From positions 1,566,565-1,630,564 of the forward strand of contig JAJVIF010000001.1 of assembly GCA_022072165.1 (NCBI GenBank): DNA of 64,000 nt, read 5' to 3'. The notes under the pieces are model-generated. The model saw only the letters and a list, made by a program, of their open reading frames with translations, did not search any database and had not been told where the DNA came from. Source of the stretch: a bacterium (lineage in GTDB: Bacteria > JAJVIF01). Positions 19,957 to 48,081 of the stretch are shown here, piece after piece. The position numbers and the translations under genes are program-made. Positions within the stretch are counted from its first letter, which is position 1. Each line of letters starts with the position of its first letter.

Positions 19957-20565
19957 ATGTCCCACTTCCCGCAACGCCTCCGACCCGCCACGTCTGGCCT
20001 GATGAGCCGGCGTATGTCGGTGGCTCTGCTGCTGGTGGGAGTCGCACTGCTGCAGCTTGGCTGCTTCACGCCGGTGGCGAAACACCAGTATGGGCCGTCG
20101 TTGAGCGAGCAGCCTGCGGCGACTCTCGAAAAGAGTCAGGCCGCCGGGATCGCCGCCCAGCGGGAAGAGCGACTTGCCGCCGGGACGGATCAGCGGGGCG
20201 GGTTTGGGACTGTCCCCCTGGCGGCGCATTTTCTGGGGGATGTAAACAGCGCCGTGCAGGAGGCGCAGTCATCGGGGATACGGCAACGGATTTTTGTCCT
20301 GATCACCGATGGGCAATGCCAGGAGTGTGAACGTTGGGAAAAGATTCTGACTTCCGATGTCATCCTCCGGGAGAAGCAGCGGGGGTGGATCTTTGTCCGG
20401 GCGGATGTGACGGTGAATCCGAAGGTGCTGGACCGGTACAAGCTGACGGTGGATGATCTGCCGGTGGGGCTGGTCGTGAGCGACCGGGGGAACGAGAACT
20501 ACCGGTATGTGAAAGCGCCGTCGAGTGTCGAGGTGATGCACCAGTGGCTCCGCGACCGCTGGTGA
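19957..20565 (+). CDS. Thioredoxin-fold lipoprotein with CxxC motif
   Basis: A 202-residue lipoprotein from ATG 19957; the frame is open further upstream (to 19840) but the later start gives a normal signal peptide (MSVALLLVGVALLQLGC) with its lipobox Cys. After a linker of about 70 residues comes IFVLITDGQCQECERWEKIL, a thioredoxin-like first helix with the redox motif CQEC, then VILREKQRGWIFVRADVTVN. Proteins of this kind sit in the envelope and act as thiol reductases or oxidases. Its neighbourhood encodes many Cys-rich secreted proteins (20.6-26.5 kb), so a role in their disulfide formation is a reasonable inference, not shown. Confidence 0.65.
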   Translation: MSHFPQRLRPATSGLMSRRMSVALLLVGVALLQLGCFTPVAKHQYGPSLSEQPAATLEKSQAAGIAAQREERLAAGTDQRGGFGTVPLAAHFLGDVNSAVQEAQSSGIRQRIFVLITDGQCQECERWEKILTSDVILREKQRGWIFVRADVTVNPKVLDRYKLTVDDLPVGLVVSDRGNENYRYVKAPSSVEVMHQWLRDRW

Positions 20566-20618: not shown

Positions 20619-20655
20619 TTGACGTGTGTGTGTGTGTGTGTGTGTGTGTTACTTT
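20619..20655 (+). promoter_or_regulatory. Promoter A with (TG)12 spacer, possible phase-variable promoter
   Basis: TTGACG (20619-20624) is followed directly by twelve TG units (20625-20648), then TGTTACTTT, an extended -10 (TACTTT, 20650-20655). The spacer is 25 bp, eight more than optimal. The -10 ends six bases before the ATG at 20662, so the transcript would be leaderless. Loss of four TG units would restore a 17-bp spacer. Confidence 0.55.
20625..20648 (+). repeat. (TG)12 microsatellite
   Basis: An uninterrupted run of twelve TG dinucleotides between the promoter elements of cassette copy 1. It is a slippage-prone tract; copy 2 carries only eight units at the same place. Confidence 0.95.
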
Positions 20656-20661
20656 GAGGGC

Positions 20662-21219
20662 ATGGCTACTCCATGGACGAAATCTTTCTGCACCTTGGCG
20701 CTAACTTGCGCTATGTGGGTGGCCATGGGAGCCATGCCCAACATGAGTGCAACAAATGCCAGCCCAATGGCTGGATGGTGTCTCTGCCATGGCTGCCTTC
20801 TTCATGAGGATCCCGTGCTGTCGTATGAAGTGGATACATGCCCGAACCTGCATATCTTCTGCTGGGGCGTGCCGATTCCAGTACCGATCACTGTTTTGTG
20901 TACCGTCAGATTTAGAGAGAATATTTACTCCTTTACTGGCTCCGCGCACGAGCAGGACGGTGATTGCCAGGACCAGGGTATGGTGGAGTGCGGCAAGCTC
21001 CACCCACGCCGGTGCAGAGAATTCCTGGGAGTCGACTGCAGTGCAGACATCTCTGTGGAAGTGCTGGATGAACTGATCGGGCTATTCCCGGGATGCGACC
21101 TCCCAGGAAATCTGATACAGATCCGCGAAGCCTGCGAGATTACAGTGCGCCAGCGTTGGGAGGGTCCGCCAGTCTGTTCAGATGCCATCGCATGCGACCA
21201 GTCGGAGGGCTGCCCCTGA
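20662..21219 (+). CDS. Cys-rich secreted protein, type 1 (cassette copy 1)
   Basis: A 185-residue protein starting at ATG 20662; GTG codons inside the TG tract would add a CVCVCVC extension but place residues in front of the signal peptide. The leader is MATPWTKSFCTLALTCAMWV and the mature part has about 16 Cys, with GWCLCHGC near the start, VPIPVPITVLC, DCQDQGMVECGKLH and a terminal CDQSEGCP. The same Cys spacing occurs in the protein at 24150. It is probably exported and disulfide-bonded or metal-binding. No known family was recognised. It overlaps the next gene by TGATG. Confidence 0.75.
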   Translation: MATPWTKSFCTLALTCAMWVAMGAMPNMSATNASPMAGWCLCHGCLLHEDPVLSYEVDTCPNLHIFCWGVPIPVPITVLCTVRFRENIYSFTGSAHEQDGDCQDQGMVECGKLHPRRCREFLGVDCSADISVEVLDELIGLFPGCDLPGNLIQIREACEITVRQRWEGPPVCSDAIACDQSEGCP

Positions 21220-22385
21220 TGCGTCGTATTCTCCCACTACTGCAGGCGTCACTCCTGCTGGCCATCCTGTTTCCGACTGGTTGTGGTTCAGGCCAGCGAC
21301 AGCCAGCGCCTGCCTCTGCAGAGCGATCTACGGAACTCACAGCAACCGTGGACCGACGGTTTGGTGACTGGGACGGCGAAAAGGAGTGGCGGAACAGATC
21401 AGGACGGGACGATGACCCTGTGGCGGATCTCTTCGCCCGGCGCCTGGAGATAACAGTACCGACCGCCGCTGATGCTGACAGAATCCGGAGTTGGCAAACG
21501 GGGGAGACTGGTCCCTGCATGAAGCAAATCTGGGACAGCCATCGGGGCCTGAGAGAAGCGCTCGAGTTCTATTGCTGGTCTCACGATGGAGCATGGCCGA
21601 CGGCGGTACAGGACGTGGCCCCGTACTGCTTTAGCTGGCCAGTGAAGGGACCACGGAGTACAGAGTTGATCCCGCTGGTTGACGCAGAAACATTTAAGGT
21701 CCGAGTCGCTCAGCATGACAAGCTGGTCTTCCCATTAGAGCAGATGCTGGAACTGCAGATGCTGGCCCTCGACCTCACGGAAGATGGCGCGTCCGTTTAC
21801 CGGCCGGCCATCGAGACTGGTGGCACCCGCTGTCTGTTCATGGGTGTCCCGGAGGCATGCAGCCGATACCCTGGGTCTACGCCGCGATACCGGCGCGAGT
21901 CCATCACCACGCTCGCTTCATTGCCGCCGGACGCTCTCCGGACGAGATTGAGCAAGGCTTTCAACTGGGCACCCCCGGAAGAGATTCGTGTGGGATTCGC
22001 AGCCGACGCGCTGCAGGAGCTGATCCGGTGGGCCTGTCTAAATCTCTGGCGGCCCCCGGAGAACCTGGACGAGATGCTGCAGTTCTCGGGGCATCAGGTG
22101 ATCAATTTGGCCGCCGTCCCACCGGAGGAGGCAGACATCCTTGTCGAGTTTGACGGCGAGTCCAGCTACCGGATGACACTTCGCTATATGCCCAACCTGG
22201 TCGTGCAAAGAATCTATACGATTCACCGGGTGGCTCATCCGCACTTCAGCGCCAGCATCATTGGCCCCACCCGATTTGAAGAGCTTCGCCCGGAAGCCAG
22301 TTTTGTACCGTTTGCCAGCTTCCGCCTCGCGACTCCGTCGGCAGCCGCTATGCCGTATCAGCTCAGCCCGCCAGGAGGATCATAA
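21219..22385 (+). CDS. Lipoprotein A of unknown function (cassette copy 1)
   Basis: A 388-residue lipoprotein whose ATG overlaps the stop of the upstream Cys-rich gene (TGATG), so the two are translationally coupled. Signal peptide MRRILPLLQASLLLAILFPT ends in a GC lipobox. The mature part is mostly helical, with REALEFYCWSHDGAWPTAVQ, SWPVKGPRSTELIPLVDAE, and near the end ADILVEFDGESSYRMTLRY. All three segments recur in the paralogue at 24706 (EALGRYERYRGE, FAWPARAPGSSEPIPLI, ADLVVEFDGEASYLFTLRY). No family was recognised. Confidence 0.75.
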   Translation: MRRILPLLQASLLLAILFPTGCGSGQRQPAPASAERSTELTATVDRRFGDWDGEKEWRNRSGRDDDPVADLFARRLEITVPTAADADRIRSWQTGETGPCMKQIWDSHRGLREALEFYCWSHDGAWPTAVQDVAPYCFSWPVKGPRSTELIPLVDAETFKVRVAQHDKLVFPLEQMLELQMLALDLTEDGASVYRPAIETGGTRCLFMGVPEACSRYPGSTPRYRRESITTLASLPPDALRTRLSKAFNWAPPEEIRVGFAADALQELIRWACLNLWRPPENLDEMLQFSGHQVINLAAVPPEEADILVEFDGESSYRMTLRYMPNLVVQRIYTIHRVAHPHFSASIIGPTRFEELRPEASFVPFASFRLATPSAAAMPYQLSPPGGS

Positions 22386-22393
22386 ACTTTGCC

Positions 22394-22960
22394 ATGCAAA
22401 CACCTGCTTCACAGTTTTCATCACGGGTCATGCCCTGGTTCCGTGGAGCCATGACTTCGCTTGTCTTACTCTCCATCGCCGCTGCTCCTCCAGTGGTGCA
22501 AGCAGAACCCTGCGACAAGGCTTGCTGTCTGGCCGTTGCGGTGAATGAAGGTGTATGGACCATCACCCTTCCATACTACTACTGTCATTGCGAAGGTGGG
22601 ATTCCCCACACCTATGTGGCATTTCTGGAGGAGGTGACGTATCACTTTGATGTGCGGAGCTGGACCTATGCCTGCGGGGAGGAGTGGGAATGTACGCAGG
22701 TCTCCACATATCCTGAGGCGGTCATCTATTGCGGGGAGATTGAACAGATGCTGCACCCTCGCATCGGACCTGACTGGATTCGTGCCGAGGGGCCAAAGAA
22801 TCAGACCATCTGTGAGCAATGCTATATCCCAGGGGTCTGCTTCCCAAGTGGGCCTGCCTGGGCTGACTTACCTCACATGTGCGGCATCTGTGTCTGTGAC
22901 GACCCCTGCCATTGCCATGTTGAATGGCTCACACCGCTCATCTACTGCCCCGCTCGATGA
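22394..22960 (+). CDS. Cys-rich secreted protein, type 2 (cassette copy 1)
   Basis: A 188-residue protein with signal peptide GAMTSLVLLSIAAAPPVVQA. The mature part has about 19 Cys in a fixed pattern: CDKACCLAV, YYYCHC, YACGEEWECTQVS, ICEQCYIPGVC and a dense MCGICVCDDPCHCHVEWL near the end. The last cluster, with Cys, Asp and His, could bind metal. The paralogue at 25883 shares this pattern, and two stretches (41 and 54 bp) are identical even at DNA level. It lies eight bases after lipoprotein A. Confidence 0.75.
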   Translation: MQTPASQFSSRVMPWFRGAMTSLVLLSIAAAPPVVQAEPCDKACCLAVAVNEGVWTITLPYYYCHCEGGIPHTYVAFLEEVTYHFDVRSWTYACGEEWECTQVSTYPEAVIYCGEIEQMLHPRIGPDWIRAEGPKNQTICEQCYIPGVCFPSGPAWADLPHMCGICVCDDPCHCHVEWLTPLIYCPAR

Positions 22961-22977
22961 CACCTGGAGGTGTTCCG

Positions 22978-23985
22978 ATGCTTCTACACTTCGCAAGTCG
23001 TATCCATCCATTACTCAGGACCGTTATTTACATGGCCTTTCTCGGCTTTCTGTCATTGCTCGGCTGCCCCCGGAATTCGCCTGAGAACTCCCCTGCTGCC
23101 CTGGACCCAGCAGCTGCCCGGCAGACGGCTGGGTTCCCGGCGACCGTAAAGCTCGGTGATCGTGATGTTGAGCTGCGGTCGACCAGTAGTCCGGAACTGC
23201 GACAACTCAACCGAGTCGCAAAAGCGCTGGCGACTGCGGTCTCCTGGGGCGCGAAACAGGACGCTACCGTCTTCACGGACTGGTTTCAGCAACCCGCACC
23301 AGAACTGTCCGCTCCGTTGCCCGTCATCTGGGTGGATCCGCCGGGGCATCCGGTGCCGATGACACAGGATCGGTCGGTGCCGCGGCGGATCTGGCCCTCT
23401 TTCAAGGATGGCACGTTGCAGATCCTGACGCTGACCACGCCGGAGGCAAAGACTGCCCGAGGCCTTCAGGCTATCGATCCGGAGCGCCGGAGCACCCCGC
23501 TTCCGCCGCTGCCTGACGGCAGAATCATCCCTACACTGGATCCCTGTGCGCCGCTGCCCCCCGCCGGGCGGCTCCCACTGGGGATCGTGGCTGCTCTGGC
23601 CGAGCTGCATCACATGGCCCAGTATGAGCCGGGGAAACTCCGCTCCGAACTGGAACTCATGGTCCCGCCACAGACCCAGGCCCTCCTGGCGCAGGAACTG
23701 GGACCTATTCGCCTGCTCATGTGTCGTGCCCGGGGAATGGCTGCCCTCGCCTTCACCTATCAGGGAGAGTCTTACGCGGCCCTGGCAATCCAGCAACGCT
23801 GGTCCATGGGACATACCGGGGAGCACTACACATTTGGGCATGTCACCAACGAGCCACCGGAATTGATGGCGAGGTCGGTCATGATCGAGATGCTGGATTC
23901 CCAGAAGCTGCGTCCGGGCGGCATGTACGACTTCGCGAACCAGGCGCTCTGGGAGGAGGTCTCGGTCGGCCTGGGCGACCTGTGA
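22978..23985 (+). CDS. Lipoprotein B of unknown function (cassette copy 1)
   Basis: A 335-residue lipoprotein starting at ATG 22978, seven bases after GGAGGTG; the open frame extends 54 bases upstream into the previous gene without support. Lipobox LSLLGC. The body contains AKALATAVSWGAKQDATVFT, LPVIWVDPPGHPVPM, PPAGRLPLGIVAALAELHHM, and ELMVPPQTQALLAQELGPIR. These segments recur in the protein at 26483 (ARALAFAISWGARLNAEIFS, LIPLGIASALASLPDL, RLAVPPQTIALLSQDVSHLR). The family is unknown; two outer-membrane lipoproteins per cassette suggest a surface complex. Confidence 0.75.
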   Translation: MLLHFASRIHPLLRTVIYMAFLGFLSLLGCPRNSPENSPAALDPAAARQTAGFPATVKLGDRDVELRSTSSPELRQLNRVAKALATAVSWGAKQDATVFTDWFQQPAPELSAPLPVIWVDPPGHPVPMTQDRSVPRRIWPSFKDGTLQILTLTTPEAKTARGLQAIDPERRSTPLPPLPDGRIIPTLDPCAPLPPAGRLPLGIVAALAELHHMAQYEPGKLRSELELMVPPQTQALLAQELGPIRLLMCRARGMAALAFTYQGESYAALAIQQRWSMGHTGEHYTFGHVTNEPPELMARSVMIEMLDSQKLRPGGMYDFANQALWEEVSVGLGDL

Positions 23986-24113
23986 GCGCACCTGCCTGCG
24001 GAGAAAACCATTCCAATCCGCCTGAAGTGTGATGCACTCATGGCTCTGTGCTGGTGCTGCGAGGTCATGCCGCATCTATCATCAATGAGGTTTCATCATT
24101 TTGCTGCTGGCAC

Positions 24114-24142
24114 TTGACGTGTGTGTGTGTGTGTGTTAGCGT
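24114..24142 (+). promoter_or_regulatory. Promoter B with (TG)8 spacer, possible phase-variable promoter
   Basis: TTGACG (24114-24119), eight TG units (24120-24135), one T, then the extended -10 TGTTAGCGT (TAGCGT, 24137-24142). The spacer is exactly 17 bp, the optimum for the main sigma factor. The -10 ends seven bases before ATG 24150, again predicting a leaderless transcript. The 5' context TGGCACTTGACG is identical to promoter A. Confidence 0.6.
24120..24135 (+). repeat. (TG)8 microsatellite
   Basis: Eight TG units at the same promoter position as the (TG)12 tract of cassette copy 1, which shows that the tract length differs between the copies. Confidence 0.95.
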
Positions 24143-24149
24143 ATTTGCT

Positions 24150-24701
24150 ATGATTCTCCGACCGTTGCAGGCTCTGCTGGCATTAAGCATTCTGCTAGCA
24201 AGCCTACTCTGCGTGAACACCGTCAGATCAGAGGAAGGCGACCCACCTTCAACAGATGTACCCGGTTGGTGTTTTTGCCGGGGCTGTGAACTCGATTTTT
24301 TGGAGCTTCAGCTTGCGGAGCAGGAGACTTGTGGAGGCCTGATGGTGATCTGTGCCAGTGGTCCTGTCCCTGTGCCATTTCCAATCGATTGTCTGATAAC
24401 TTATGACGCCAAGATTTTTACACTCGGAGCAGCCGCTGCAGAACCCGAGCCTGGAGACTGCGATGAGCTCGGCTTAATTGAGTGCGGCGCATCACATGTC
24501 GAACTGTGCAAAACTTTCCGGGGTGCGATGTGCTCCGCAGCAGCTTGGGCGGTGTTTCTCGACGAGTTTAACTTCACCTGCGGCATCCCGTATCAACTCG
24601 AAATCTTTGAGTATTTATGTCGGGAAGAAATCAGGCAAACGCTGGAAGGACAGATCATTTGCACAGGCACTGTCTCCTGCGACGCCACGGAGGGTTGCTG
24701 A
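24150..24701 (+). CDS. Cys-rich secreted protein, type 1 (cassette copy 2)
   Basis: A 183-residue protein from ATG 24150, with signal peptide LLALSILLASLLCVNTVRSE. It shares with the 20662 protein the order GWCFCRGC, VPVPFPIDC, GDCDELGLIECGASH, CKTFRGAMCSA, and a terminal SCDATEGC, so the two are paralogues despite only moderate overall identity. The reading frame also stays open through the TG tract, which would give a CVCVCVSVF extension, but the signal peptide argues for the downstream ATG. Probably exported. Confidence 0.75.
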   Translation: MILRPLQALLALSILLASLLCVNTVRSEEGDPPSTDVPGWCFCRGCELDFLELQLAEQETCGGLMVICASGPVPVPFPIDCLITYDAKIFTLGAAAAEPEPGDCDELGLIECGASHVELCKTFRGAMCSAAAWAVFLDEFNFTCGIPYQLEIFEYLCREEIRQTLEGQIICTGTVSCDATEGC

Positions 24702-24705
24702 ACCA

Positions 24706-25893
24706 ATGAAGGGCGGCATCAGATTCGTACTGATAACCGGGTTACTGCTTGCTCCAGGATGCGCCAGTAAAGCTGCGCGCCCAGCAGCACCGGGACAGGT
24801 GTCCCCAGCCACAACTATCAGGAGGCCAGCGACTGATGGAGAGTCGGCAAGTCAAAAACAGGGAACCAGTATTGAAGAGGCAAAGGCCCTGGTTGCGGAA
24901 GGCAGACCCCTTGAAATCTTTTCTCCCACTCCCGCACAACGAATCGAGATCGAGGGCTGGATCGCTGGCGACCTGGCGACCTGCTGGCCCAAGATGTGGA
25001 AGTCTCCATTTGACATACGGGAAGCGCTGGGGCGATACGAGCGATACCGGGGAGAGCCTCCGCCGGATATGTTACTGACCGGCCTGGCACCGTTTGTCTT
25101 CGCCTGGCCAGCCCGCGCCCCAGGGAGTAGTGAACCAATCCCACTTATCCATCCGGTAGACGCTGCCAAGTGGCAAGCCTGGACTCAGCGCGCTCAACTA
25201 ACGCAAGAGGAGATGCTGGATGCTCAGGCATTCGCCCTGGAGCTGGACCAGGACTCGAGGCGTCTGACGGTACCTTTTCGCCAGCGAGCCCTGATCGAGA
25301 CGTACGGCTTTATAACAATCCCGCTGACAGACTCACCTGTCCGTGCGCAAGTTAAATACCAGCCCCGATCATCGATGCAAGAGGCCCTTCCCCGCCTCGA
25401 ACGGATGCGTGATCATCGTCGCTGGGGCGAGCTCAACGATGTCGAGTCATGGCTGATACCGGATGAACTCCGTCTCTATCTTGCGGCGTCAGACATCATG
25501 AATCTCATCAGAGTAGCGACGGTGAACAGCTGGCAAGTACCAGGATCGCTCAGCGAGCTGGAGCGCTATTCAGGCCATGTGCTGCTGAATCTTGAACCCA
25601 TCGATGCTCAGCACGCCGATTTGGTCGTGGAGTTTGATGGTGAAGCCAGCTATCTGTTTACGCTCCGTTACCCGGCAGGTGTGACGCATACCATCCAGTA
25701 CCAGATCAACCGCCTTGCCTGGCCTGAGTGGCTTTCCTCCAAGCTGGATCCTACAGGCAACAACAACAAGTATCAGGGCAAGAACTACAAGCCCTTCGCG
25801 GCGTTTCACCTGACTTCATCCTCCGATGCTCAACTTCCTGTCAGGCGGATAACTGCAAGCCACAAGCACGAAGGAGCGACCGATGAAGAGTGA
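24706..25893 (+). CDS. Lipoprotein A of unknown function (cassette copy 2)
   Basis: A 395-residue lipoprotein starting at ATG 24706, four bases after the previous stop; a much longer open frame from 24478 overlaps the previous gene and is rejected. Leader MKGGIRFVLITGLLLAPGC with lipobox. It has a Ser/Thr/Pro linker to about residue 60, then the helical domain shared with the 21219 protein. Two differences: it lacks the internal Cys-containing loop around CLFMGVPEACSRY, and it ends in a basic tail. It overlaps the next gene by 11 bp. Confidence 0.75.
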   Translation: MKGGIRFVLITGLLLAPGCASKAARPAAPGQVSPATTIRRPATDGESASQKQGTSIEEAKALVAEGRPLEIFSPTPAQRIEIEGWIAGDLATCWPKMWKSPFDIREALGRYERYRGEPPPDMLLTGLAPFVFAWPARAPGSSEPIPLIHPVDAAKWQAWTQRAQLTQEEMLDAQAFALELDQDSRRLTVPFRQRALIETYGFITIPLTDSPVRAQVKYQPRSSMQEALPRLERMRDHRRWGELNDVESWLIPDELRLYLAASDIMNLIRVATVNSWQVPGSLSELERYSGHVLLNLEPIDAQHADLVVEFDGEASYLFTLRYPAGVTHTIQYQINRLAWPEWLSSKLDPTGNNNKYQGKNYKPFAAFHLTSSSDAQLPVRRITASHKHEGATDEE

Positions 25894-26467
25894 TAACCAG
25901 CCGGTCTTTCTGGCTGTACATCTTAGACGGCTGATCCCGGCTGTCGCGAGCTTGGGGCTAGCTTTGCTGATCCTGGCACTGCCCAGCATCGCGCCTGATG
26001 TCGCGGCTGAGGAAGATTGTGACAAGCACTGCTGCCTCGCCGCAGGAGTCGTCGACAGCGTCTGGCGGTTCGAGATGGACTACTACCAGTGCTGGTGCAT
26101 AAATAATGAGCCCATGGGGGAGACCAGTTTCAGGAGGAGGGTCGCATTTGAGTTTGACGTGTTTTCCTACACCTATGCCTGCGGGGAGGAGTGGGAATGT
26201 ACGCAGGTCTCTACCGACCCCAAAGCAACCATTCGCTGCGGCGATACAGAGCAGATGCTGTTTCCCCGGTTAGGGGAGAACTGGCGGCGCGCTTATGGGC
26301 CCAAGAGCCAGGCGATCTGCGAAGAGTGTTACATCCCAGGGCAGTGCTTTCCGCTGATGCCTAACTGGGCCGATCTGCCCAAAATGTGCGGCATCTGTGT
26401 CTGTGACGACCCCTGCCATTGCCATGTTGAATGGCTCTCGCCTCTGGTCGATTGTTCCCTCAAGTAG
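25883..26467 (+). CDS. Cys-rich secreted protein, type 2 (cassette copy 2)
   Basis: A 194-residue protein from ATG 25883 behind GAAGGAG, overlapping the end of lipoprotein A. Signal peptide VASLGLALLILALPSIAPDV. The Cys pattern CDKHCCLAAG, YYQCWC, YACGEEWECTQVS, ICEECYIPGQC, MCGICVCDDPCHCHVEWL is the same as in the 22394 protein. The strong conservation of aromatic and Cys positions against variable surroundings suggests a small disulfide- or metal-stabilised fold under selection. Confidence 0.75.
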   Translation: MKSDNQPVFLAVHLRRLIPAVASLGLALLILALPSIAPDVAAEEDCDKHCCLAAGVVDSVWRFEMDYYQCWCINNEPMGETSFRRRVAFEFDVFSYTYACGEEWECTQVSTDPKATIRCGDTEQMLFPRLGENWRRAYGPKSQAICEECYIPGQCFPLMPNWADLPKMCGICVCDDPCHCHVEWLSPLVDCSLK

Positions 26468-26482
26468 CAAAGGAGAATCCCC

Positions 26483-27463
26483 ATGCTTCATCGGCTTTCG
26501 CAGCACCACGGTCGCATCGCCATTGTCCTAGGTCTCTGCTGGTCCCTCCCGGTGGTCGGATGCCTGAGTGGCGGTCCAGGGGCAACCCCAGGCCAGACAA
26601 CACAACAAAAACCACCTCATATCGCCCCCCCGGTTCGTCAGCCTGCTGACATTCGCGAGCCGGTATCGGCGGAGTCGCTCTATCTCAGCGATCAGGCCCG
26701 GGCGCTGGCCTTCGCGATTTCCTGGGGTGCTCGCCTCAACGCGGAGATCTTTTCCCGGTGGCTTCAGATGGAGCATCCAGAGCTGCAGGCATCACTCCCG
26801 GTCGTGTTGCTCGACAGCCACGGCGAAGTCGTCCCGTTTACGACCCGGCACAGCGATCCCCATCGCATCGAAGTTGCGTTCAAAGATGGCATCGCACGTC
26901 TGCTCGTGATTCGGACCCCAGAGCGTTACGAAGGCTGGGACTTCAGCAGCCGTCCTCCAGGCTTTTGGTCAGAAAACCCAGTCAAGGGGACCAGCTACAC
27001 AGCCACGCTTCCGGTAATCGATGCTGGAGCGGGGCTGCCGGAAGCCGGGCTCATCCCTCTCGGGATCGCCAGTGCGTTAGCCAGCCTCCCCGACCTGGAA
27101 GGCTACCAGCAGGGCGACTTACGAGAATTGCTCCGGCTGGCAGTTCCTCCGCAAACAATCGCGTTACTTTCGCAGGATGTCAGTCACCTCCGGGTACTCC
27201 GACGTCGCGGCTATGGCTGGGTAGCGCTGGTCTATGAGGTCAATGGACAACGAATCGCGGCAACTGCCCAATCGGGCAAGCTCGACATGATTCGCAAGCC
27301 GGGTGGTGGCTATGAACTCCGCCACAGTGCGACTGGTGGCGCGGGTCGCTCCGTTCACATCACGTTGCTCAATGAAGTACTCATTTCATCACAGACCAGG
27401 ATGTACGCCTTTGATGACCCGGCGCAATGGGAACTGTTGACGACCGATCTCTCAGCATTGTGA
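26483..27463 (+). CDS. Lipoprotein B of unknown function (cassette copy 2)
   Basis: A 326-residue lipoprotein with AAAGGAG six bases before ATG 26483. Lipobox SLPVVGC. After a Gln/Pro-rich linker it carries the same domain as the 22978 protein, including SWGARLNAEIFSRWL, PVVLLDSHGEVVPF, and IPLGIASALASL. It closes the second cassette; I see no terminator after it, and a new promoter begins 13 bases downstream. Confidence 0.75.
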   Translation: MLHRLSQHHGRIAIVLGLCWSLPVVGCLSGGPGATPGQTTQQKPPHIAPPVRQPADIREPVSAESLYLSDQARALAFAISWGARLNAEIFSRWLQMEHPELQASLPVVLLDSHGEVVPFTTRHSDPHRIEVAFKDGIARLLVIRTPERYEGWDFSSRPPGFWSENPVKGTSYTATLPVIDAGAGLPEAGLIPLGIASALASLPDLEGYQQGDLRELLRLAVPPQTIALLSQDVSHLRVLRRRGYGWVALVYEVNGQRIAATAQSGKLDMIRKPGGGYELRHSATGGAGRSVHITLLNEVLISSQTRMYAFDDPAQWELLTTDLSAL

Positions 27464-28625: not shown

Positions 28626-28650
28626 TGTAGGGGGGGTGACGACTGAAACC

Positions 28651-28800
28651 GGAGCCCAGGTCTTGAGACCTGGTCGCGTGATCAATCTCCACGTTCCAAG
28701 TCTGAAGACTTGGGGTCCGCTGCGACCCGGAGCCTAGGTCTTGAGACCTGGTTGCGTGATGAATCTGCACGGCACAAGTCTGAAGACTTGTGGTCCGCCG
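28651..28800. repeat. Two tandem 78-bp units, each with two palindromes
   Basis: Units begin at 28651 and 28729. Each contains an AGGTCTTGAGACCT palindrome (28658-28671 and 28736-28749) and an AAGTCTGAAGACTT palindrome (28698-28711 and 28776-28789). In the second palindrome the outermost pair is C-G in unit 1 and A-T in unit 2, a compensatory change suggesting selected secondary structure. This is probably a dispersed intergenic element. The 346-bp gap (28557-28902) holds only this and the terminator. Confidence 0.8.
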
Positions 28801-29801: not shown

Positions 29802-30812
29802 CTAATGCGTTGTGGAGGAGGAGGGCTGAGCTCCCAATTCGGAATCGCCAGTTGGCGCGATAGCAGGGAGCATTGAGCCTGGCTCGTACTCCCCAAGGTG
29901 GCCGCAGTATCTTGTGGCTGTTTGCCCTTGCACGTTAACGTAGTGGAAGCCGATCCAGGTTCCTTCCCCTGTTGAAAGGTCTGAATAGTCGCCGGGAGTG
30001 GGCTGGCTGATCGGCACGTTCTTCATGGGCGCTCCTGTATACGGGTTTATCCAACAGGCAGGGTTGAGTCCACCGTAAATGAGCGCAAGATGTTGGAGCG
30101 ATGTAGGGGCTCGATGATCCGGTGAAGATCGGACGATCTCGGTGACACAAGCATTGATGATGTTCACCATGAGTACTAGTTTGGCGTTCGCGGTCGTCGG
30201 CTCCGGAAGTGGAGCGTCCGAATTTTGTGAGGAGGTCAGCTTCGAGGACCAGGCTTCGGTTTGCGACTGTTGGTACTTCAGGTCGCTCCAATGAGGCTCG
30301 TGTGGCGAGACAATAGCGATCCAGCGCTCCACATCACCGTGCACTCCGGGCGGCGGGTCGAATCCCTCGTACTTCGGGATCGTGCCCTGGACTTGCATCG
30401 CGCGGAGTTTGGCGGAGAACGGATTGTCGCTGCTTAACGGGCGCTCACCTACAAGTAGGGTATAGCCCAGTTCCTGGTTGCGCGAGTATGTGAGTTCGAA
30501 GGCATCGCGGAGGCTGTTGAACGGCACATACCGATTCAACTGCTGAAAGGATGACGGCGCAGGGGATTCCCCGATCGCAGGCCACATCAAGATGATGTGG
30601 TCGGCTACCAGTCCCGAGATATCACCGCCGCTTAAGGTCGACATGAAGCCGAGCCATTCCTCGTTCGATCCCACCGCAGGGCCCGATGCCCGTTGAACAT
30701 CTGTTGGTCTCGGCCCGACTACGCCAGCGTCGGCAGTCTCCCTGGGTGACTGACCCGCTTTACAGCCACTGATTAAGGCAGCGGCCATCAGTACGGCGAT
30801 CCAGTGTTTCAT
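29802..30812 (-). CDS. Lipoprotein of unknown function (third secreted/lipoprotein pair)
   Basis: A 336-residue lipoprotein starting at ATG 30812, with GGAG eight bases upstream; an upstream start at 30851 is less likely. Leader MKHWIAVLMAAALISGC with lipobox. The body has LRDAFELTYSRNQELGY and MVNIINACVTEIVRSSPDHR, and ends with CWINPYTGAPMKNV, a motif also seen in pseudopilin-related lipoproteins. Size, lipidation and pairing with a Cys-rich secreted protein recall lipoprotein A of the tandem cassettes, but no segment aligns convincingly. Confidence 0.65.
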   Translation of the reverse strand: MKHWIAVLMAAALISGCKAGQSPRETADAGVVGPRPTDVQRASGPAVGSNEEWLGFMSTLSGGDISGLVADHIILMWPAIGESPAPSSFQQLNRYVPFNSLRDAFELTYSRNQELGYTLLVGERPLSSDNPFSAKLRAMQVQGTIPKYEGFDPPPGVHGDVERWIAIVSPHEPHWSDLKYQQSQTEAWSSKLTSSQNSDAPLPEPTTANAKLVLMVNIINACVTEIVRSSPDHRAPTSLQHLALIYGGLNPACWINPYTGAPMKNVPISQPTPGDYSDLSTGEGTWIGFHYVNVQGQTATRYCGHLGEYEPGSMLPAIAPTGDSELGAQPSSSTTH

Positions 30813-30859
30813 GATTAGCTCCGTTTGCGGATGAATGAAGAAATCCTGCACAGAAAGGG

Positions 30860-31552
30860 CTAGTTGTGATAGTGACTGCCATAGTCACCATTACAATGGG
30901 GTGCAGCACAGCCCGTTGTGGAGCCGGTCGTATGCATGAGCCGGACCCAGGGGGATCCAGTCCCTACATGACAGGTGGCGAGGTGGCCATTCGCCATCTC
31001 TGACCAGATCGCGTTCTTCAGGGCAGTGACATGCGCACCGTTGTAAGTCCCTGAGACATGCTGGACCTCGATCTCGATAAGGTCAGTGTCAGTGCGATCC
31101 CACCCCCCATCTCCGCCTTCGCCATCGTCTGGGTTGCAGAACTTAGCAACGTTCCATTTGACCGAGCCAGCACACCCAGTAGGCTGTGTCAGGTCTCCGC
31201 ATGCCGATCCATTAGAGGCGCAATGCTGACCGTCCAAATTGAACTGATTGTGGTCAGGGCTAACCGTGCAGGGAGGGCTGCCAGAAGAGGTATACAGACA
31301 GTAGTGCAACCGGACCCGCATTTTGTAGACCGATGACGTGCCTGGAATCGTATGATCGATCCAGTCAGGCCAGCTGCCTCCGACGTAGTAGGTTCCGGTA
31401 CCGCCACCGCAGGGTGACGTGCCCAGGAACGTTTGCATGTAGAGTGCTGGTCCGTGACTTTCATACGGACACATGATGGAAGCTTCCGCCCGATGAGGGA
31501 CGTCCGCTACCAGCACCATGCAACAGATCACCAAAAGTAAGAAGCACTTCAT
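30860..31552 (-). CDS. Cys-rich secreted protein of unknown family
   Basis: A 230-residue protein from ATG 31552 behind AAGGAG; a longer frame to 31912 overlaps the methyltransferase gene and is rejected. Signal peptide MKCFLLLVICCMVLVADVPH. The mature part contains about a dozen Cys, Gly-rich turns (CGGGTGTYYVGGSWPDW), the acidic stretch CNPDDGEGGDGGWDRT and a terminal CNGDYGSHYHN. Its promoter is a perfect extended TATAAT. With the lipoprotein downstream it forms a two-gene operon ended by a clear terminator. Confidence 0.65.
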   Translation of the reverse strand: MKCFLLLVICCMVLVADVPHRAEASIMCPYESHGPALYMQTFLGTSPCGGGTGTYYVGGSWPDWIDHTIPGTSSVYKMRVRLHYCLYTSSGSPPCTVSPDHNQFNLDGQHCASNGSACGDLTQPTGCAGSVKWNVAKFCNPDDGEGGDGGWDRTDTDLIEIEVQHVSGTYNGAHVTALKNAIWSEMANGHLATCHVGTGSPWVRLMHTTGSTTGCAAPHCNGDYGSHYHN

Positions 31553-31644: not shown

Positions 31645-32376
31645 TTACTGAGCTGGTTTGTGACACCAATACACCGGCTCGCTGGCGCGTAGCCCGTACC
31701 GTTCGATGCTCGCTGTTCCCAACTGCTCTGGATAAGGTATTTGCTCTACCTGAAAGCCCGCCTTGCGAAGCCGCTCGGGATAGTCCCGTCCGTAAATGCG
31801 CACATGGTCTTCCTGGCCAAACGCCCGCAAACGCTGTTCTCGCCCAATTATTGTTGGGTCCTCGTAGGTGGTTGCTCGGTTGAAGTCCTGCGGCACCTGC
31901 AGAATCGCCCAAGCATTCGGTTTCATTACCCGGTAGATTTCTCGCATCGCCAGCAGGTCATCCGGAATGTGCTCCAATACATGATTGCAGATTACCGCAT
32001 CGAAGTGCGCATCGGGAAATGGGAGGGCCTGCAGATCCGCCTGCACCTGCACTCCATGCATTTCGCTGTCCAGCGTGACCCGTTCGATCGCGGGGAATTG
32101 GGCGAAGTACGTCGCAAGTACGGTCTCAGGCGCGACATGCAGGATTCGCAGCGGCGTGGTACCTAGCTCGACTTGGTCCCGCAGAAACAATACCAAGAGC
32201 CGCTGTCGCTCCAGAGCACCACACTGTGGACAGCGGGCACCGACCCGCGCTGAGGTGACCCCGAAATTCTTGAAAGAACGAAAATTGCCGCCGCAGCATG
32301 GGCACTCCCGACCGGTGCCTCGATAGTGCAGCATAGTGTCGACCGTGCGGTATAACCGACGCAGTGAGTCGATCAT
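31645..32376 (-). CDS. SAM-dependent methyltransferase with N-terminal zinc ribbon
   Basis: A 243-residue class I methyltransferase. Residues 25-52 carry CPCCGG and CPQCGALERQ, a four-Cys zinc ribbon. Then come RILHVAPETVLATYF (motif I, diverged), VTLDSEMHGVQVQADLQALP (motif II) and FDAVICNHVLEHIPDD (motif IV), the Methyltransf_11 pattern. Members of this group are common in cell-surface glycan clusters. A GGAGAG lies ahead of the ATG. The target is unknown. Confidence 0.75.
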   Translation of the reverse strand: MIDSLRRLYRTVDTMLHYRGTGRECPCCGGNFRSFKNFGVTSARVGARCPQCGALERQRLLVLFLRDQVELGTTPLRILHVAPETVLATYFAQFPAIERVTLDSEMHGVQVQADLQALPFPDAHFDAVICNHVLEHIPDDLLAMREIYRVMKPNAWAILQVPQDFNRATTYEDPTIIGREQRLRAFGQEDHVRIYGRDYPERLRKAGFQVEQIPYPEQLGTASIERYGLRASEPVYWCHKPAQ

Positions 32377-39722: not shown

Positions 39723-40628
39723 CTACCCTCCAAACGGTACGGGAATGACAAACTGGTAATCCTGCGCCGGGACCTGCCCACTCCAGGCGAACTCATCGAC
39801 CAACGTGCGCTGTAGCCGACGCACCGGCAGGGGTCCGGTGATCGCGCTCAGGGGCTGCACCGCATCGGCCCAGGCGGTCGCCTCCATGAACGCGATGCCG
39901 TTGAAACGTCGCTCGAACGGCGGCTTGCCCCGCTTCCCTCCCTGATAGGACGCTGCCCCATGACTGACCTCCAGCGTCCAGTCCCCAGAGGGCAACGGCA
40001 CGGGGTCGGTGAATAGCGATGGCATGGCTGACGCTTCCGGCAACGGCGGATCGTCCTGCAGCAGAAAGGCGTACTCAGGCAGATCAAGACGAGGCCAGAT
40101 GGTGTTCGCGAACGACGGACCCAGCGTCGCGAGATTGCAACTGATGACCGCAAGTCCGTGATTGACATACCACGGGTCGGCATCCCGCTGGTACCAGGTC
40201 ATATGGCGACGCTCCAGCCCATGTCCCAGGATGAAGCCAGCCCCTCCGGGGCGCAAGCGAAGCCAGGGAGTCCGCTGGTCGGGCAGGTCGGGATCACAAA
40301 GCAGCAGGGCAAATCGATAGTAACGATCCCGCTTCACAATCTGCCCGAACTCCGCAGAGTAGCTCTGTTGCACCCGTTCATACCCCGTGAAGGTGTACCC
40401 CGCCAGTGCAATCAGCTCCGGCAGGGAACCCCCGCCTGGAGTGCGGAGACGGACCACCGAGGGGCGGAGTCGCGGCGCATCGAATCCGCTGCCGCCATAG
40501 GTGTGATGCTCCCAGGTGACCCGCAGGGCGCAAAGGTCGACTTCCTGCGGAATGCGATGAAGTCGGAGGGGCGCATCGGGCCAGAGGGGAGTGGTGAAGT
40601 CGGGATAGAGCACCAGCGGATCGGTCAT
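39723..40628 (-). CDS. Phage-like structural block: tail-associated protein of unknown family
   Basis: A 301-residue protein rich in Arg, Trp and Pro. It opens MTDPLVLYPDFTTPLWPDAP, has VRLRTPGGGSLPELIALAGY and, near the end, LEVSHGAASYQGGKRGKPPF. The beta-rich composition suits a baseplate or tail-tip part. It follows the 779-residue hub-like gene by three bases and is likely co-translated with it. No known family was recognised. Confidence 0.6.
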   Translation of the reverse strand: MTDPLVLYPDFTTPLWPDAPLRLHRIPQEVDLCALRVTWEHHTYGGSGFDAPRLRPSVVRLRTPGGGSLPELIALAGYTFTGYERVQQSYSAEFGQIVKRDRYYRFALLLCDPDLPDQRTPWLRLRPGGAGFILGHGLERRHMTWYQRDADPWYVNHGLAVISCNLATLGPSFANTIWPRLDLPEYAFLLQDDPPLPEASAMPSLFTDPVPLPSGDWTLEVSHGAASYQGGKRGKPPFERRFNGIAFMEATAWADAVQPLSAITGPLPVRRLQRTLVDEFAWSGQVPAQDYQFVIPVPFGG

Positions 40629-40631
40629 GGA

Positions 40632-42971
40632 CTAGCGCACCTCCACCAGGACTCTCCGCCAGCGACCAAACACCATCGGACTCCGGGCGACAATCAGTCG
40701 TGCGCTCGCTCCGGGAAACCACTTCGCGACCTGGACGGTCTCCCCGACTTCCACTTCGCCCATGATGGGACTGCATCCCAGGTTCCGGTGCAGACGACCC
40801 TCGATTTCGACATCCGCGATGAACTGCCCGGCGATGTTGCGACCAATCGCGACGACGGTCCCGACCCGTGTCTCCAGGGGGTCATCCGTCATCGGCGGAA
40901 CCAGATTCAGCGCCAGCGAGGGAGTCACCGGGCCGATGCGCGACCGGGTCACGCCGGTGGCCGTGCTGATCTCCCAGTGATGCTGACCGCAGCGCCAACG
41001 CTGGGGAGTCGCGCTCCCAGCATCGGACTGCGCTATCACATCGCCTGGTCGCAACAGCGGTGTCAGCGGAGCAACGCATCCCCTTTCCTCGGCCACCGCG
41101 TGTGACGCCCACAGAAAAATGCTGCCGACCCGGATCGCCAATCGCTCAGTGGTCAGACGCTCATCCCGGATCGCCGGGGCGTAACGCAACTCAGCTTCGG
41201 GGACTCCGGCCACCCGCACTTCCACCCGGACCTGCCCCAGCGTGAGGTCATGGATGCCGGCATCGACGGCATACCCCTGTCCCCAGACGATGATGTGGTA
41301 CGGCGTGAGCTCTTTCAGGTAGCGACCATCAGCAGTCGCAGCGAGCCAGTCGGCGTACTCGGCCTCCAGGTCGCGAATCAGATTGTTCTCCGGATCGCTG
41401 TCTACCCAGTTCATCCGATAGCCAGGTGCCCGGGCTTCGATGCGATACCGCCCCAGCGGCACATCCACGAAGCGGTAGTACCCGCGGGCATCCGCCAGGA
41501 GGGTCACGGTGTCTGGCAGCGGCAGGTCGCCCTCCAGACGGATCCGTGTGACTTCGGCAAAGGGAACGGGCTGCGGCTCCCCTGCGTCGGAAGCGAGGGC
41601 ATCGATCACCTGCCCCGCCAGCACGAACCGGGGGTCGCCGTTTTCATCGAGGACAAACGGAGGGTCCCCCGCGAGGTCGGTCACGACCCAGGGGAGTTCC
41701 AGCTCGATGGTCGCCCAGCGATACGGACCGATCACCTCCATGCGCGGGGGACCGACCCGACGTGCCCCCTCCACGAGGAGCGTCGCCGGGTCGAACAATG
41801 TCGCGTTGAACGTGAAGGTGATCCGGAGTGGCGGCGGCAGCGTGTCGGTCCGGACCGGCGGCTCCGGCTCCCAGAAGCCTCTCGTCTCCCCGAGACGTAC
41901 CCGCCCACCCGCGCTGGGATCGGCGTTGTAGGGCCATTGCGGACGGGTCGCCACCAGTCCGCTGTCAGTGTGGCCGAAGAGCTGGATCGCTGTTGGCGCT
42001 TGTTCGGGCCGGGTCCCGGCATCAGACGACTCCAGCACGGCCCGGGGATAGCGCATCGTCAGTTGCGGACTGCGACTGGCGGGTCCAACCTCGTGCAGCA
42101 CCAGGAGCCGTCCTGCGGCACAGACCTGGGCTCCCGCCAGTCGCGCGATCTCCTGCATCAGCGCTAACGGCGAGCGGCCTGCGCCATCAAACTCCACGAT
42201 CGGGAAGTCGAGGAATCCCAGACTAATGTCAGTGAACCAGGGGTCCTGCAGCCCTGCAAAGAGCTCCCGGCAAATCGTATGGGCCGTAGGGAGTGCCTCC
42301 ACGACCCGCGACTCCCGAACACTCTGTACGGTGAAGCCCCCTACCTGACGGGAACCGAGGGTCAGACGCTCCACCCGCAGCGTCCGTCCCCAACGCTGCA
42401 TCACCACCGCCGCGTACGGGGGCTCCAGACGGTGCATCGGTTCGGCGAGGGTCAGGGTCACGGTCAGGCGACCCGCACTGTCCGCCGACTCTTCGCAGGA
42501 AATCACAAAGCCTTCGAAGAGTGTCAGCTCTGTTCCAGGAACCAGTTCCATCGAGACCCGCAGGACAGGATCGTCTGCCTGCAGCGCGTGCCACTGCTCC
42601 AGCAGCTCGATGCTCCCAGTGAGTCGGGCTGTATCGGGAGCCGGTCCCAGCGACTGGTGCCCCTCGACACCCCACATCAGATCGCTGAGGTCCGTAACCA
42701 CCGGCGTGGCATCCCAGGATGTCAACGCCCGGACCCGCAATCGTGGCTGCGGCAGTGTCACCACTTCGCCAGCGGCCAGTCGTTCCACCAGCGGCGACAT
42801 CACTTCCACAGCCTGCTGCACGACAACAGTCCCACCTGATGGCACCTGCCCATCCGGGAGCCGTCGCACGGCATTGGTGTCGGGGTCCCAGGCGACATCG
42901 ACGCCGAGTACCAGCGGCGTTGGGGGGTCCAGGAGCCAGCAGATCGGCGGCAGATAGCGCGGCGATGACAT
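40632..42971 (-). CDS. Phage-like structural block: large tail hub-like protein
   Basis: A 779-residue protein, the largest in the block. The first 380 residues alternate strands in a pattern like tail hub proteins (GGTVVVQQAVEVMSPLVERL, LTVTLTLAEPMHRLEPPYAA). A carboxypeptidase regulatory-like domain follows at about 480-545 (DARGYYRFVDVPLGRYRIEA). The last 150 residues (GRNIAGQFIADVEIEGRLHR, GEVEVGETVQVAKWF) resemble an OB-fold of baseplate spike proteins such as gpV/gp5. I infer a baseplate hub or spike; homology searching is needed. Confidence 0.55.
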   Translation of the reverse strand: MSSPRYLPPICWLLDPPTPLVLGVDVAWDPDTNAVRRLPDGQVPSGGTVVVQQAVEVMSPLVERLAAGEVVTLPQPRLRVRALTSWDATPVVTDLSDLMWGVEGHQSLGPAPDTARLTGSIELLEQWHALQADDPVLRVSMELVPGTELTLFEGFVISCEESADSAGRLTVTLTLAEPMHRLEPPYAAVVMQRWGRTLRVERLTLGSRQVGGFTVQSVRESRVVEALPTAHTICRELFAGLQDPWFTDISLGFLDFPIVEFDGAGRSPLALMQEIARLAGAQVCAAGRLLVLHEVGPASRSPQLTMRYPRAVLESSDAGTRPEQAPTAIQLFGHTDSGLVATRPQWPYNADPSAGGRVRLGETRGFWEPEPPVRTDTLPPPLRITFTFNATLFDPATLLVEGARRVGPPRMEVIGPYRWATIELELPWVVTDLAGDPPFVLDENGDPRFVLAGQVIDALASDAGEPQPVPFAEVTRIRLEGDLPLPDTVTLLADARGYYRFVDVPLGRYRIEARAPGYRMNWVDSDPENNLIRDLEAEYADWLAATADGRYLKELTPYHIIVWGQGYAVDAGIHDLTLGQVRVEVRVAGVPEAELRYAPAIRDERLTTERLAIRVGSIFLWASHAVAEERGCVAPLTPLLRPGDVIAQSDAGSATPQRWRCGQHHWEISTATGVTRSRIGPVTPSLALNLVPPMTDDPLETRVGTVVAIGRNIAGQFIADVEIEGRLHRNLGCSPIMGEVEVGETVQVAKWFPGASARLIVARSPMVFGRWRRVLVEVR

Positions 42972-42992
42972 CAGATCAATCCTCGTGTGACA

Positions 42993-43424
42993 TCACTCAG
43001 GCAAGGGATCCAGCAACACCGGGTTCTCACCGGTTAGTACCACCGACACCCCCCGGCTGACTTCCAGTGCAGCGGGCATCGCATCTAGCAGGGCGGGACT
43101 CACGATGAGCCCGATGATGGGAATCCGTCCGGACTGGCGCCACCGGACAGCCAAGGGGTGTGAACGCAGCAGCGCGGTCCCCCACTGCACGGCCAGTGGA
43201 TGCGAGATCGGTGGTGCTCCGGCGAGTCGCAGGCTCAGCGGCAGACGCTGACTCACCGCCCCGGCGATGCGGAGTCCCAGGAGCAGGGTGGTGGTCGGCG
43301 CGAGTTGCCAGGAGACGCCCAGGGGTCGTGTGGTGACTCGTGGAGTCCCCACCCGATGCCCCAGGGGATAGCGTCGGCTCACCCCGGCGTAGCAGCGATA
43401 GCTCAGTGGATGGGTGGCCGTCAT
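42993..43424 (-). CDS. Phage-like structural block: repeat protein with PL motifs
   Basis: A 143-residue protein with eight short units marked by a PL or similar core: HPLSYRCY, YPLGHRVG, RPLGVSWQ, LLLGLRIA, LPLSLRLA, HPLAVQW, HPLAVRW, IPIIGLI. The spacing is about 14-17 residues, suggesting stacked beta strands, as in fibrous virion parts. No family was recognised. It lies three bases before the gene at 43427. Confidence 0.55.
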   Translation of the reverse strand: MTATHPLSYRCYAGVSRRYPLGHRVGTPRVTTRPLGVSWQLAPTTTLLLGLRIAGAVSQRLPLSLRLAGAPPISHPLAVQWGTALLRSHPLAVRWRQSGRIPIIGLIVSPALLDAMPAALEVSRGVSVVLTGENPVLLDPLPE

Positions 43425-43426
43425 AA

Positions 43427-44338
43427 CTATGCCGACACGATGCGCGCCTGGAGCTGCGCGGAATAGGGATTCCCGGCGGCGGTCCGACCCGGTGCCGCCT
43501 GCGCCCGGATCCAGAACGGGATCGATTCCTCCGGGTCCATGGCTCCCAGGACCAGTTCCGGTCCCACAAAGGTGCCGGGTGCGCCCGACTCATCGGGAGC
43601 TAACTGGAAGTCCTGGAAGCCGGCGGAGATTTCCACTTCCCCAGGTCCCTCGGCGACCTGCAGCAGTTCGATGACCACAGTTGGACCATCCGGCAATTCC
43701 AGCAGAATCACCGGGCCATCCAAGGTTCCCGCAATCGTGCCGACTTCTTCGCCGTTGAACTCCACCTCGAACTCATAGGTCGAGTCCGGCACCCAGGCGA
43801 TGCCCCAGACACCCACCGGTGTCGTCAGGTCGAGACTCGCCTCCGCCACGGCCTGGATGAACGGGGATTCGCCACTGTTGCGGACCACGGCATCCGGACG
43901 AATCAGGAGCCGGGCATCCACGCCCCCGGTTTCACCCACATTGCGGGCATACATTCGATGGGGCGTGCCGGTTGCCCCCGCGACCAGCGTCCCGGCGTGC
44001 CAGCCGACATCAATCTGGCTGATGTAGTGCGTCCCGGGGATCAGTACGCCGAACTCCAGCTGGATGCCGGGAATGATGCTCCCGGTACTCACCGCGCCGC
44101 CTCCTGGCAGCACGAACTCGACCGGCATCCCGGTGGCCGGTGTCATCGTGCCCCGCCATACCAGGCCGTCATGCTCCAGATCGATCACATAGCTGTCGGC
44201 CAGTGCGAAGCCGCCGGTCCGGGCGGAAGCTTCCAGCAACGACGCTGTCACAATCGCGCTCCCGGCGACATTGGTCAGATAGACCTGCCGACTCTGCAAT
44301 CCGGTGCTGTCTTCGAATACCTGTAACTCTGCTGCCAT
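43427..44338 (-). CDS. Phage-like structural block: beta-rich tail protein
   Basis: A 303-residue protein taken from ATG 44338; 39 further codons are open upstream but run over the next gene's end with no ribosome-binding site. Two domains are visible: FALADSYVIDLEHDGLVWRG with STGSIIPGIQLEFGVLIPGT, then WVPDSTYEFEVEFNGEEVG and a final Ig-like region (PFWIRAQAAPGRTAAGNPYS). Position and size would fit a major tail or tail-tip protein. The family is unknown. Confidence 0.55.
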   Translation of the reverse strand: MAAELQVFEDSTGLQSRQVYLTNVAGSAIVTASLLEASARTGGFALADSYVIDLEHDGLVWRGTMTPATGMPVEFVLPGGGAVSTGSIIPGIQLEFGVLIPGTHYISQIDVGWHAGTLVAGATGTPHRMYARNVGETGGVDARLLIRPDAVVRNSGESPFIQAVAEASLDLTTPVGVWGIAWVPDSTYEFEVEFNGEEVGTIAGTLDGPVILLELPDGPTVVIELLQVAEGPGEVEISAGFQDFQLAPDESGAPGTFVGPELVLGAMDPEESIPFWIRAQAAPGRTAAGNPYSAQLQARIVSA

Positions 44339-44387
44339 CAGAGACCTCGCTTCTGCATCTGTAATCGGCGACCTTTTCCGCCACCTG

Positions 44388-44717
44388 CTACCCCACGACC
44401 TGACACTCCACGGCCACAGTCCAGCGATCGCTCCCCAACGTCGGCGACCGCTCAATCCTGGTCAGCACGATCTCCCAGGAGTCGGCACCGAGGGTTAGCG
44501 TGGTGTTCGCACCAGCGCCCCAGAGCGACTCCAGGTCGGTCAGCTCGTCCGCGGTAATCCCCTGGCCGGTCAGCTTCAGGCGCTGCCTGCGACCACCGCG
44601 CCAGAGGAGTCCCCCGCCAGTGAGGGTGCTGACGAGCAGCCCACCGACATCCCTCACTGCCACGATTTCCGGCGTGAGTCCCAAAGTCCGGCCATCGATG
44701 CTCACCTGTATTGCCAT
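44388..44717 (-). CDS. Phage-like structural block: small tail protein
   Basis: A 109-residue beta-rich protein: MAIQVSIDGRTLGLTPEIVA, GITADELTDLESLWGAGANT and DSWEIVLTRIERSPTLGSDR. The last part resembles small tail-tube or distal tail domains of siphophages, but the similarity is weak. It is three bases from the neighbouring gene. Confidence 0.55.
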   Translation of the reverse strand: MAIQVSIDGRTLGLTPEIVAVRDVGGLLVSTLTGGGLLWRGGRRQRLKLTGQGITADELTDLESLWGAGANTTLTLGADSWEIVLTRIERSPTLGSDRWTVAVECQVVG

Positions 44718-44720
44718 GTG

Positions 44721-45092
44721 CTAACTCCCTGTCACCTGCCAGTCTTCGAGTCGCCAGACCATTTCCTCACGCACCTGACCCGCCTCCGCCACCAGCGACC
44801 ACTCCCGCAAAACAGCCCGCGCTGATTCCAGCATCACCGCATCTGAGTGAAGCCGACAGGTGGTCGGCTGGCCCAGCCAGGCCATCCCTTGCGGCGGATC
44901 GCTGGCGTACGCGACACAGCGGAGTTCCAGAGTCCGGCTGGTGGTCAGATGGAAGCGATCCGGCGAGTCCGCGTTGCGTGGGAGCGCGAGTCCCTGGTCG
45001 GCAAACTGCAGCTGACAACGGGTGATCTGCCAGATCGTTCCTGCCCCGATTTCCAGCGACATCTGCGGTATTGCCAGTAACGGTGGTGTCAT
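44721..45092 (-). CDS. Phage-like structural block: tail component
   Basis: A 123-residue protein starting at ATG 45092, which overlaps the stop of the upstream gene (TAATG), so an earlier in-frame start is rejected. It holds RTLELRCVAYASDPPQGMAW and VREEMVWRLEDWQVTGS. The layout echoes the 109-residue protein that follows, and both could form tail parts. No family was recognised. Confidence 0.55.
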   Translation of the reverse strand: MTPPLLAIPQMSLEIGAGTIWQITRCQLQFADQGLALPRNADSPDRFHLTTSRTLELRCVAYASDPPQGMAWLGQPTTCRLHSDAVMLESARAVLREWSLVAEAGQVREEMVWRLEDWQVTGS

Positions 45093-48041: not shown

Positions 48042-48081
48042 CGTCACTCCTTTCGGAACTCGTGGTCCCGCATCTGATTAC

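Follow-up and report, generated by a model that had tools for sequence, protein, structure and literature searches.

What do the proteins of a tandemly duplicated four-gene cassette do, and how is their expression controlled? This question is raised by positions 20662-27463 of a 64,000-nucleotide stretch (hereafter the window) of contig JAJVIF010000001.1, from a bacterium of the JAJVIF01 lineage whose genome assembly comprises 3.26 Mb in 4 contigs. Each cassette encodes two Cys-rich secreted proteins and two lipoproteins. From the analysis described here, we consider it probable that the two cassettes are part of a larger repertoire of operons that is phase-variable by slippage in simple sequence repeats, and in which a secreted Cys-rich protein and a partner lipoprotein act at the surface of a diderm cell.

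Both cassettes are on the forward strand and have the gene order Cys-rich protein C1, lipoprotein A, Cys-rich protein C2 and lipoprotein B. In cassette 1, these proteins are encoded at 20662-21219 (185 aa), 21219-22385 (388 aa), 22394-22960 (188 aa) and 22978-23985 (335 aa), and in cassette 2 at 24150-24701 (183 aa), 24706-25893 (395 aa), 25883-26467 (194 aa) and 26483-27463 (326 aa). The initial annotation had described these eight open reading frames (ORFs), the motifs GWCxCxGC, YACGEEWECTQVS, CHCHVEWL and VEFDGExSY, and the coupling of neighboring genes, and all of these were found. Specifically, the start of lipoprotein A overlaps the stop of C1 in cassette 1 (TGATG, 21217-21221), and in cassette 2 the genes for lipoprotein A and C2 overlap by 11 bp (25883-25893). 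In pairwise alignments, the paralogues of cassettes 1 and 2 are 30% (C1), 32% (lipoprotein A), 55% (C2) and 36% (lipoprotein B) identical, with BLASTP E-values within the window of ~1e-26, ~1e-41, ~1e-71 and ~1e-43, respectively, i.e. far beyond chance. All four lipoproteins have a lipobox-like motif (PTGC, APGC, LLGC and VVGC); lipoboxes and presumed signal peptides were judged by eye. Omp85/BamA and VKOR are both encoded in the genome, from which one would expect an outer membrane and an oxidative route for folding exported Cys-rich proteins. The sequences fit the earlier description of exported small proteins and lipoproteins, and the lipoproteins would probably reside in the outer membrane.

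Each cassette is preceded by a candidate promoter on the forward strand in which a GT repeat fills the spacer. At cassette 1 (20619-20655), the -35 element TTGACG (20619-20624) is followed by (GT)13 (20624-20649) and the -10 candidate TACTTT (20650-20655), resulting in a spacer of 25 bp that is predicted to be off. At cassette 2 (24114-24142), TTGACG (24114-24119), (GT)9 (24119-24136) and the weak -10 candidate TAGCGT (24137-24142) give a spacer of 17 bp that is predicted to be on. The tandem duplication noted initially stands, but the description was incomplete in omitting the TTGACG-(GT)n promoter of each cassette as well as the family copies elsewhere in the genome, and what had been read as a local duplication is one part of a dispersed repertoire.

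To describe this repertoire, we use an unbiased sample of sixty 20-kb stretches with coordinates fixed beforehand (1.2 Mb, 37% of the genome) and homology searches, which together cover roughly 40% of the genome; zinc-ribbon-like or wrong-frame ORFs were removed by eye from the screen for Cys-rich proteins as non-members. As a lower bound, 19 scattered family operons are known. Ten are in the sample (L079, L086, L087, L088, L116 (two), L121, L122, L126 and L132), and the other nine are in the window (three), at L014 (two), L015, L016 and L017, and as a related lipoprotein pair at L102. Scaling of the sample suggests that the whole genome has perhaps ~27 operons (25-30). Searches of the genome with the lipoproteins gave the loci C4:128.7k, C4:60k, C1:810k, C1:191k and 29802-31552 in the window, in all of which the lipoprotein gene is immediately preceded by a Cys-rich exported ORF. 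The last of these is the third operon of the window and is on the reverse strand; its Cys-rich secreted protein (30860-31552) is related to a protein at C1:191k, and its partner lipoprotein (29802-30812) to lipoproteins at C1:810k and C1:192k.

Beyond the four-gene cassettes, the operons are mostly two-gene versions. The product of the first gene is usually short and exported, and a CC pair follows closely on its presumed signal peptide (by eye, for instance, DCCWK, QCCCYR, GCCYE, DFCCEY and CDKACC), and a C-terminal CC is also frequent; exceptions are C1 with its GWCxCxGC motif, a Cys-rich lipoprotein at L088 and a small lipoprotein at L102. The second gene encodes a lipoprotein of roughly 310-460 aa and usually overlaps the first gene or lies at most 80 bp away from it. 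Among 8163 ORFs of the sequence analysed, lipoproteins from different loci tend toward mutual best matches, forming the clusters L116/L087/L079/L132/L126/L086, window A/L014c/L015, 29802/L016/L017, window B/L014 and L122/L088/L102 (E=1e-69 and 4e-44 for the latter). The gene order of the cassettes recurs at L014 and L121 in the same genome. Here, the fourth gene encodes lipoprotein B at L014 (E=1.1e-12) and a protein with weak resemblance to it at L121, and the third genes encode relatives of C2 (L121 versus C2, E=0.003; L121 versus L014, E=0.006-0.01) that have the Cys framework of C2 in common. Separately, an exported relative of the L121 lipoprotein is encoded at L112:1-914 (C1:960k, reverse strand; E=9e-10) with no Cys-rich gene seen directly upstream.

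The evidence for switching comes from the placement of repeats. Tandem repeats (at least 95% match, period of at most 20) are rare, with nine in the 1.2-Mb sample, and six of the nine are found where family operons begin (L086, L087, L116b, L121, L122 and L126). The chance probability of this is 3e-16, an optimistic value given that L086 and L122 came to notice through their adjacent repeats; when only operons identified by their cysteine content are counted, four of the nine repeats are at operon starts, and the same formula gives, by our own arithmetic, ~1e-10. Three repeats are not family-linked, i.e. CATCTG inside a HIT-protein-like gene (L076), a 20-bp array (L074) and ACGCAAG before an ssb-like gene (L120). 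The latter, a perfect (ACGCAAG)4.1 at L120:15946-15974 just before this gene, is a possible switch on a housekeeping gene. For dinucleotide repeats of at least eight units, the link is complete: all eight in 1.33 Mb are directly before family operons, and seven start exactly at a TTGAC -35 element with a -10 candidate at the other end. In a pattern search across the genome, all true TTGAC-dinucleotide promoters, eight in number, belonged to this family, and the eighth (C2:53930) has an imperfect repeat; in 58 other genomes, the pattern has at least one clear case among the matches listed. The units at the same promoter position differ, being GT, AG or CT. Thus, the putative phase-variable promoter of the initial annotation is strongly supported genome-wide by the repeats in spacers before family operons.

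The lengths of the dinucleotide-filled spacers follow a simple pattern. In addition to the 25 and 17 bp of the window cassettes, they are 19 bp (L014a and L088), 21 bp (L116b and L121a) and 17 bp (L126 and L122), and L126 has a perfect TATAAT -10 element at its 17-bp spacer. All are odd, in a comparison between loci rather than of one locus between cells, and lengths of 17-25 bp in 2-bp steps are as expected from 2-bp slippage around an optimum of 17 bp. Members without a spacer repeat have spacers of 17 bp (L014c, L015, L016, L079 and L087) or 16 bp (L017), and L132 has 14 bp with an A8 tract. Perfect repeats with longer units are found in the leader, with units of 10 bp at L015 and L086 and 12 bp at L016, and in the N-terminal coding region, with units of 8 bp at L017 and 17 bp at L087. 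The repeat at L017 begins just after the ATG, and slippage of its 8-bp unit would alter the reading frame; the 17-bp unit carries its own AGGAG and ATG. Altogether, 14 of the 19 family operons have repeats.

In the model that we favor, each operon would specify either one exported, disulfide-rich protein or two, and downstream of every such protein a lipoprotein partner with which it may physically pair. Slipped-strand mispairing in the repeats would randomly switch expression. With each dinucleotide unit gained or lost, the -35/-10 spacer would lengthen or shorten by 2 bp relative to the optimum of 17 bp, with cassette 2 (17 bp) predicted to be on and cassette 1 (25 bp) off, and slippage of 8- or 17-bp units within the N-terminal part of a coding sequence would cause a frameshift. 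The benefit may lie in heterogeneity of the cell surface in encounters with phages, predators or neighbors. Several observations weigh against this model. Repeats are absent at 29802-31552, L014c, L079 and L116a, and several -10 candidates are weak (TAGCGT of cassette 2 and GAATAT of L116b and L122). The promoter scores presuppose a sigma factor like that of E. coli, and repeat lengths are known from one assembly, and repeats in metagenome-assembled genomes (MAGs) may be miscounted. Moreover, some Cys-rich proteins have little in common past the cysteine pattern, and no host immune pressure is evident because the closest relatives compared are MAGs with environmental isolate names.

Recombination between paralogues would add further diversity to such a repertoire. 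The two C2 copies share identical blocks of 41 nt (22664-22704 and 26171-26211) and 54 nt (22877-22930 and 26384-26437), both on the forward strand and both candidate gene-conversion tracts, against a background of 30-60% identity. Similarly, the tandem lipoproteins at L079 are 87-100% identical over the last ~240 nt and mostly 20-60% over the preceding ~800 nt. On sequence grounds, these patterns point to segmental gene conversion or recombination between paralogues, with strong constraint as the remaining alternative. It is tempting, although quite speculative, to go further and to envision a self-diversifying recognition system, in which gene conversion would reshuffle dozens of independently switched pairs, each made up of a disulfide-rich secreted protein and a lipoprotein that is its cognate receptor or anchor, and every cell would thereby acquire a combinatorial surface identity for kin discrimination or for defence against phages and predators.

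None of the eight cassette proteins was above cut-off in Pfam, NCBIfam, PADLOC or PHROGs. Thus, the family remained unknown in each library tried, and no clear match of all four proteins to a described system was found. Weak NCBIfam matches of the second copy of lipoprotein B (HTH_BldC and sphingomyelinase) were far below cut-off and treated as chance. A C2 profile had no match among PDB sequences and no convincing relative in 59 related genomes (one short match with internal stops), in the genome contig collection, or among viral contigs or phages. Matches of a lipoprotein A profile in other genomes were short and mostly to the N-terminal lipoprotein signal and were dismissed, and an AlphaFold model of lipoprotein A (predicted local distance difference test score of 34) was not used. 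Among the functions raised initially, a surface complex is plausible, and neither the toxin/immunity-like set nor the contact system has gained positive evidence.

Among the three other genomes of the class that we compared, MAG AUK107 (G002) has three homologous lipoproteins, two of which directly follow exported ORFs with 6-7 cysteines, and a Lake Pavin sediment MAG (G001) has one. In the promoter of the latter, TTGA and GTG are separated by a C14 run, and the spacer to TATACT is 16 bp, which in sequence is the same design as the dinucleotide spacers, with a homopolymer. As a separate observation, methyltransferase-like genes of similar sequence are near a family operon in the window (31645-32376, reverse strand) and in AUK107 (L065:575-1372), which may reflect a shared neighborhood or chance.

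We considered three alternative explanations for these operons. The first is a polymorphic arsenal in which the Cys-rich proteins would be antibacterial toxins, the lipoproteins periplasmic immunity proteins, and the repeats switches for whole pairs. Two-gene units for a small, variable exported protein and its partner, in many divergent and tandem copies, are reminiscent of the SitA lipoprotein toxin families reported in myxobacteria (PMC5562445), and translational coupling holds the partners together. However, no toxin or immunity domain was found in the four libraries, although new toxin folds would escape such searches. Also, the lipoproteins exceed the exported proteins in size and are homologous across loci, whereas an immunity protein usually changes along with the toxin that it counters, and a cell with immunity switched off would be exposed to sister cells in the on state. 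We therefore regard this arsenal as unlikely. The second alternative is a structural or adhesive role, accessory to an envelope layer or a surface fibre, with pilus-like lipoproteins, a Cys-rich cap, a dose tuned by repeats and cell-to-cell variation as an incidental effect. Motifs in the lipoproteins recall pilin globular domains, a predicted model of an AUK107 homologue (predicted template modelling score of 0.61) has two domains of a helix and three strands, and at L088:3930-7061 (C2:53.9k), the gene directly after a Cys-rich/lipoprotein operon of the phase-variable type has a classical prepilin N-terminus (GFTLIELLVV). However, the lipoproteins had no match to Pfam pilin profiles, and the AUK107 model had no significant PDB match; Foldseek and VIA-align gave weak, mixed matches only, without pilins among the significant rows, an absence that excludes nothing. 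The numerous divergent paralogues, each with its own switch, are more in line with diversification than with a single structure, and we consider fibre accessories improbable. Finally, it is very improbable that the repeats are neutral or assembly artefacts before ordinary constitutive lipoprotein genes: even though their lengths rest on one assembly, long dinucleotide repeats are as rare as eight in 1.33 Mb and all precede one gene type, seven of them occupy precisely the interval from TTGAC to a -10 candidate, and different units (GT, AG and CT, and C in a relative) occupy the same position.

Other features of the window are described here for completeness. A thioredoxin-like lipoprotein (19957-20565, forward strand; Thioredoxin_7, E=1.2e-4, below the curated cut-off) is encoded just upstream of cassette 1, and a functional tie between the two is a conjecture. 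A two-copy 78-bp repeat at 28649-28798 has a palindromic AAGTCTGAAGACTTGG element and is also found upstream of the L121 operon; similar elements at several other sites of the sampled genome suggest that it is possibly a dispersed element like repetitive extragenic palindromes. A prophage-like block at 39723-49880 (reverse strand) encodes a Phage_capsid_4 protein (46605-47627, E=8.7e-36) and a portal-like protein (48639-49880) and is adjoined by a FliR-like ORF (49932-50729). Lastly, a 2.8-kb direct repeat (55901-58701 and 61181-63981; 100% identical, offset 5280 bp), whose long ORFs had no Pfam match, is a candidate for a recent duplication or a mobile element.

Most of what is known about phase variation by repeats comes from host-adapted pathogens. 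Here, a lineage with AUK107 and Lake Pavin sediment MAGs as the nearest relatives compared appears to devote 25-30 operons to it, and the design with a dinucleotide as spacer is found at eight loci, with some spacer lengths predicted to be on and others off. Searching for repeats that exactly fill a promoter spacer may offer a route to hidden surface-variation systems in uncultured phyla.

The operons share design principles with several known systems. In mycoplasmas (for example, Vpma), multigene families of variable surface lipoproteins are similarly present in one genome; however, Vpma are reported to switch by DNA recombination in wall-less pathogens (PMC2268961), whereas the operons described here have promoter repeats, a diderm host and a separate Cys-rich partner, and no sequence relation to these lipoproteins was detected. 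Myxobacterial SitA/SitI also form many polymorphic two-gene cassettes involving lipoproteins, but there the lipoprotein is reported to be the toxin and to be delivered by outer membrane exchange (PMC5562445), whereas here it is encoded by the second gene and no toxin domain was found in the libraries searched. The Campylobacter phasome is reported likewise to have loci under simple sequence repeats genome-wide, mostly affecting the surface, but these are mostly G/C tracts (PMC6321876) rather than, mainly, dinucleotide spacers and 8-17-bp units in one gene-pair repertoire. A likeness in mechanism is seen with the hifA/hifB fimbrial switch of Haemophilus influenzae, in which (TA)9-11 in the promoter is proposed to change the -10/-35 spacing and thereby switch expression of surface proteins (PMC2651432). 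That switch concerns one divergent fimbrial promoter and TA units; the eight promoters described here contain GT, AG or CT units and precede unrelated Cys-rich/lipoprotein operons. Thus, phase variation by promoter-spacer repeats is an already known principle, and the apparent novelty lies in the protein families, in the pairing of secreted proteins with lipoproteins and in how many loci there are.

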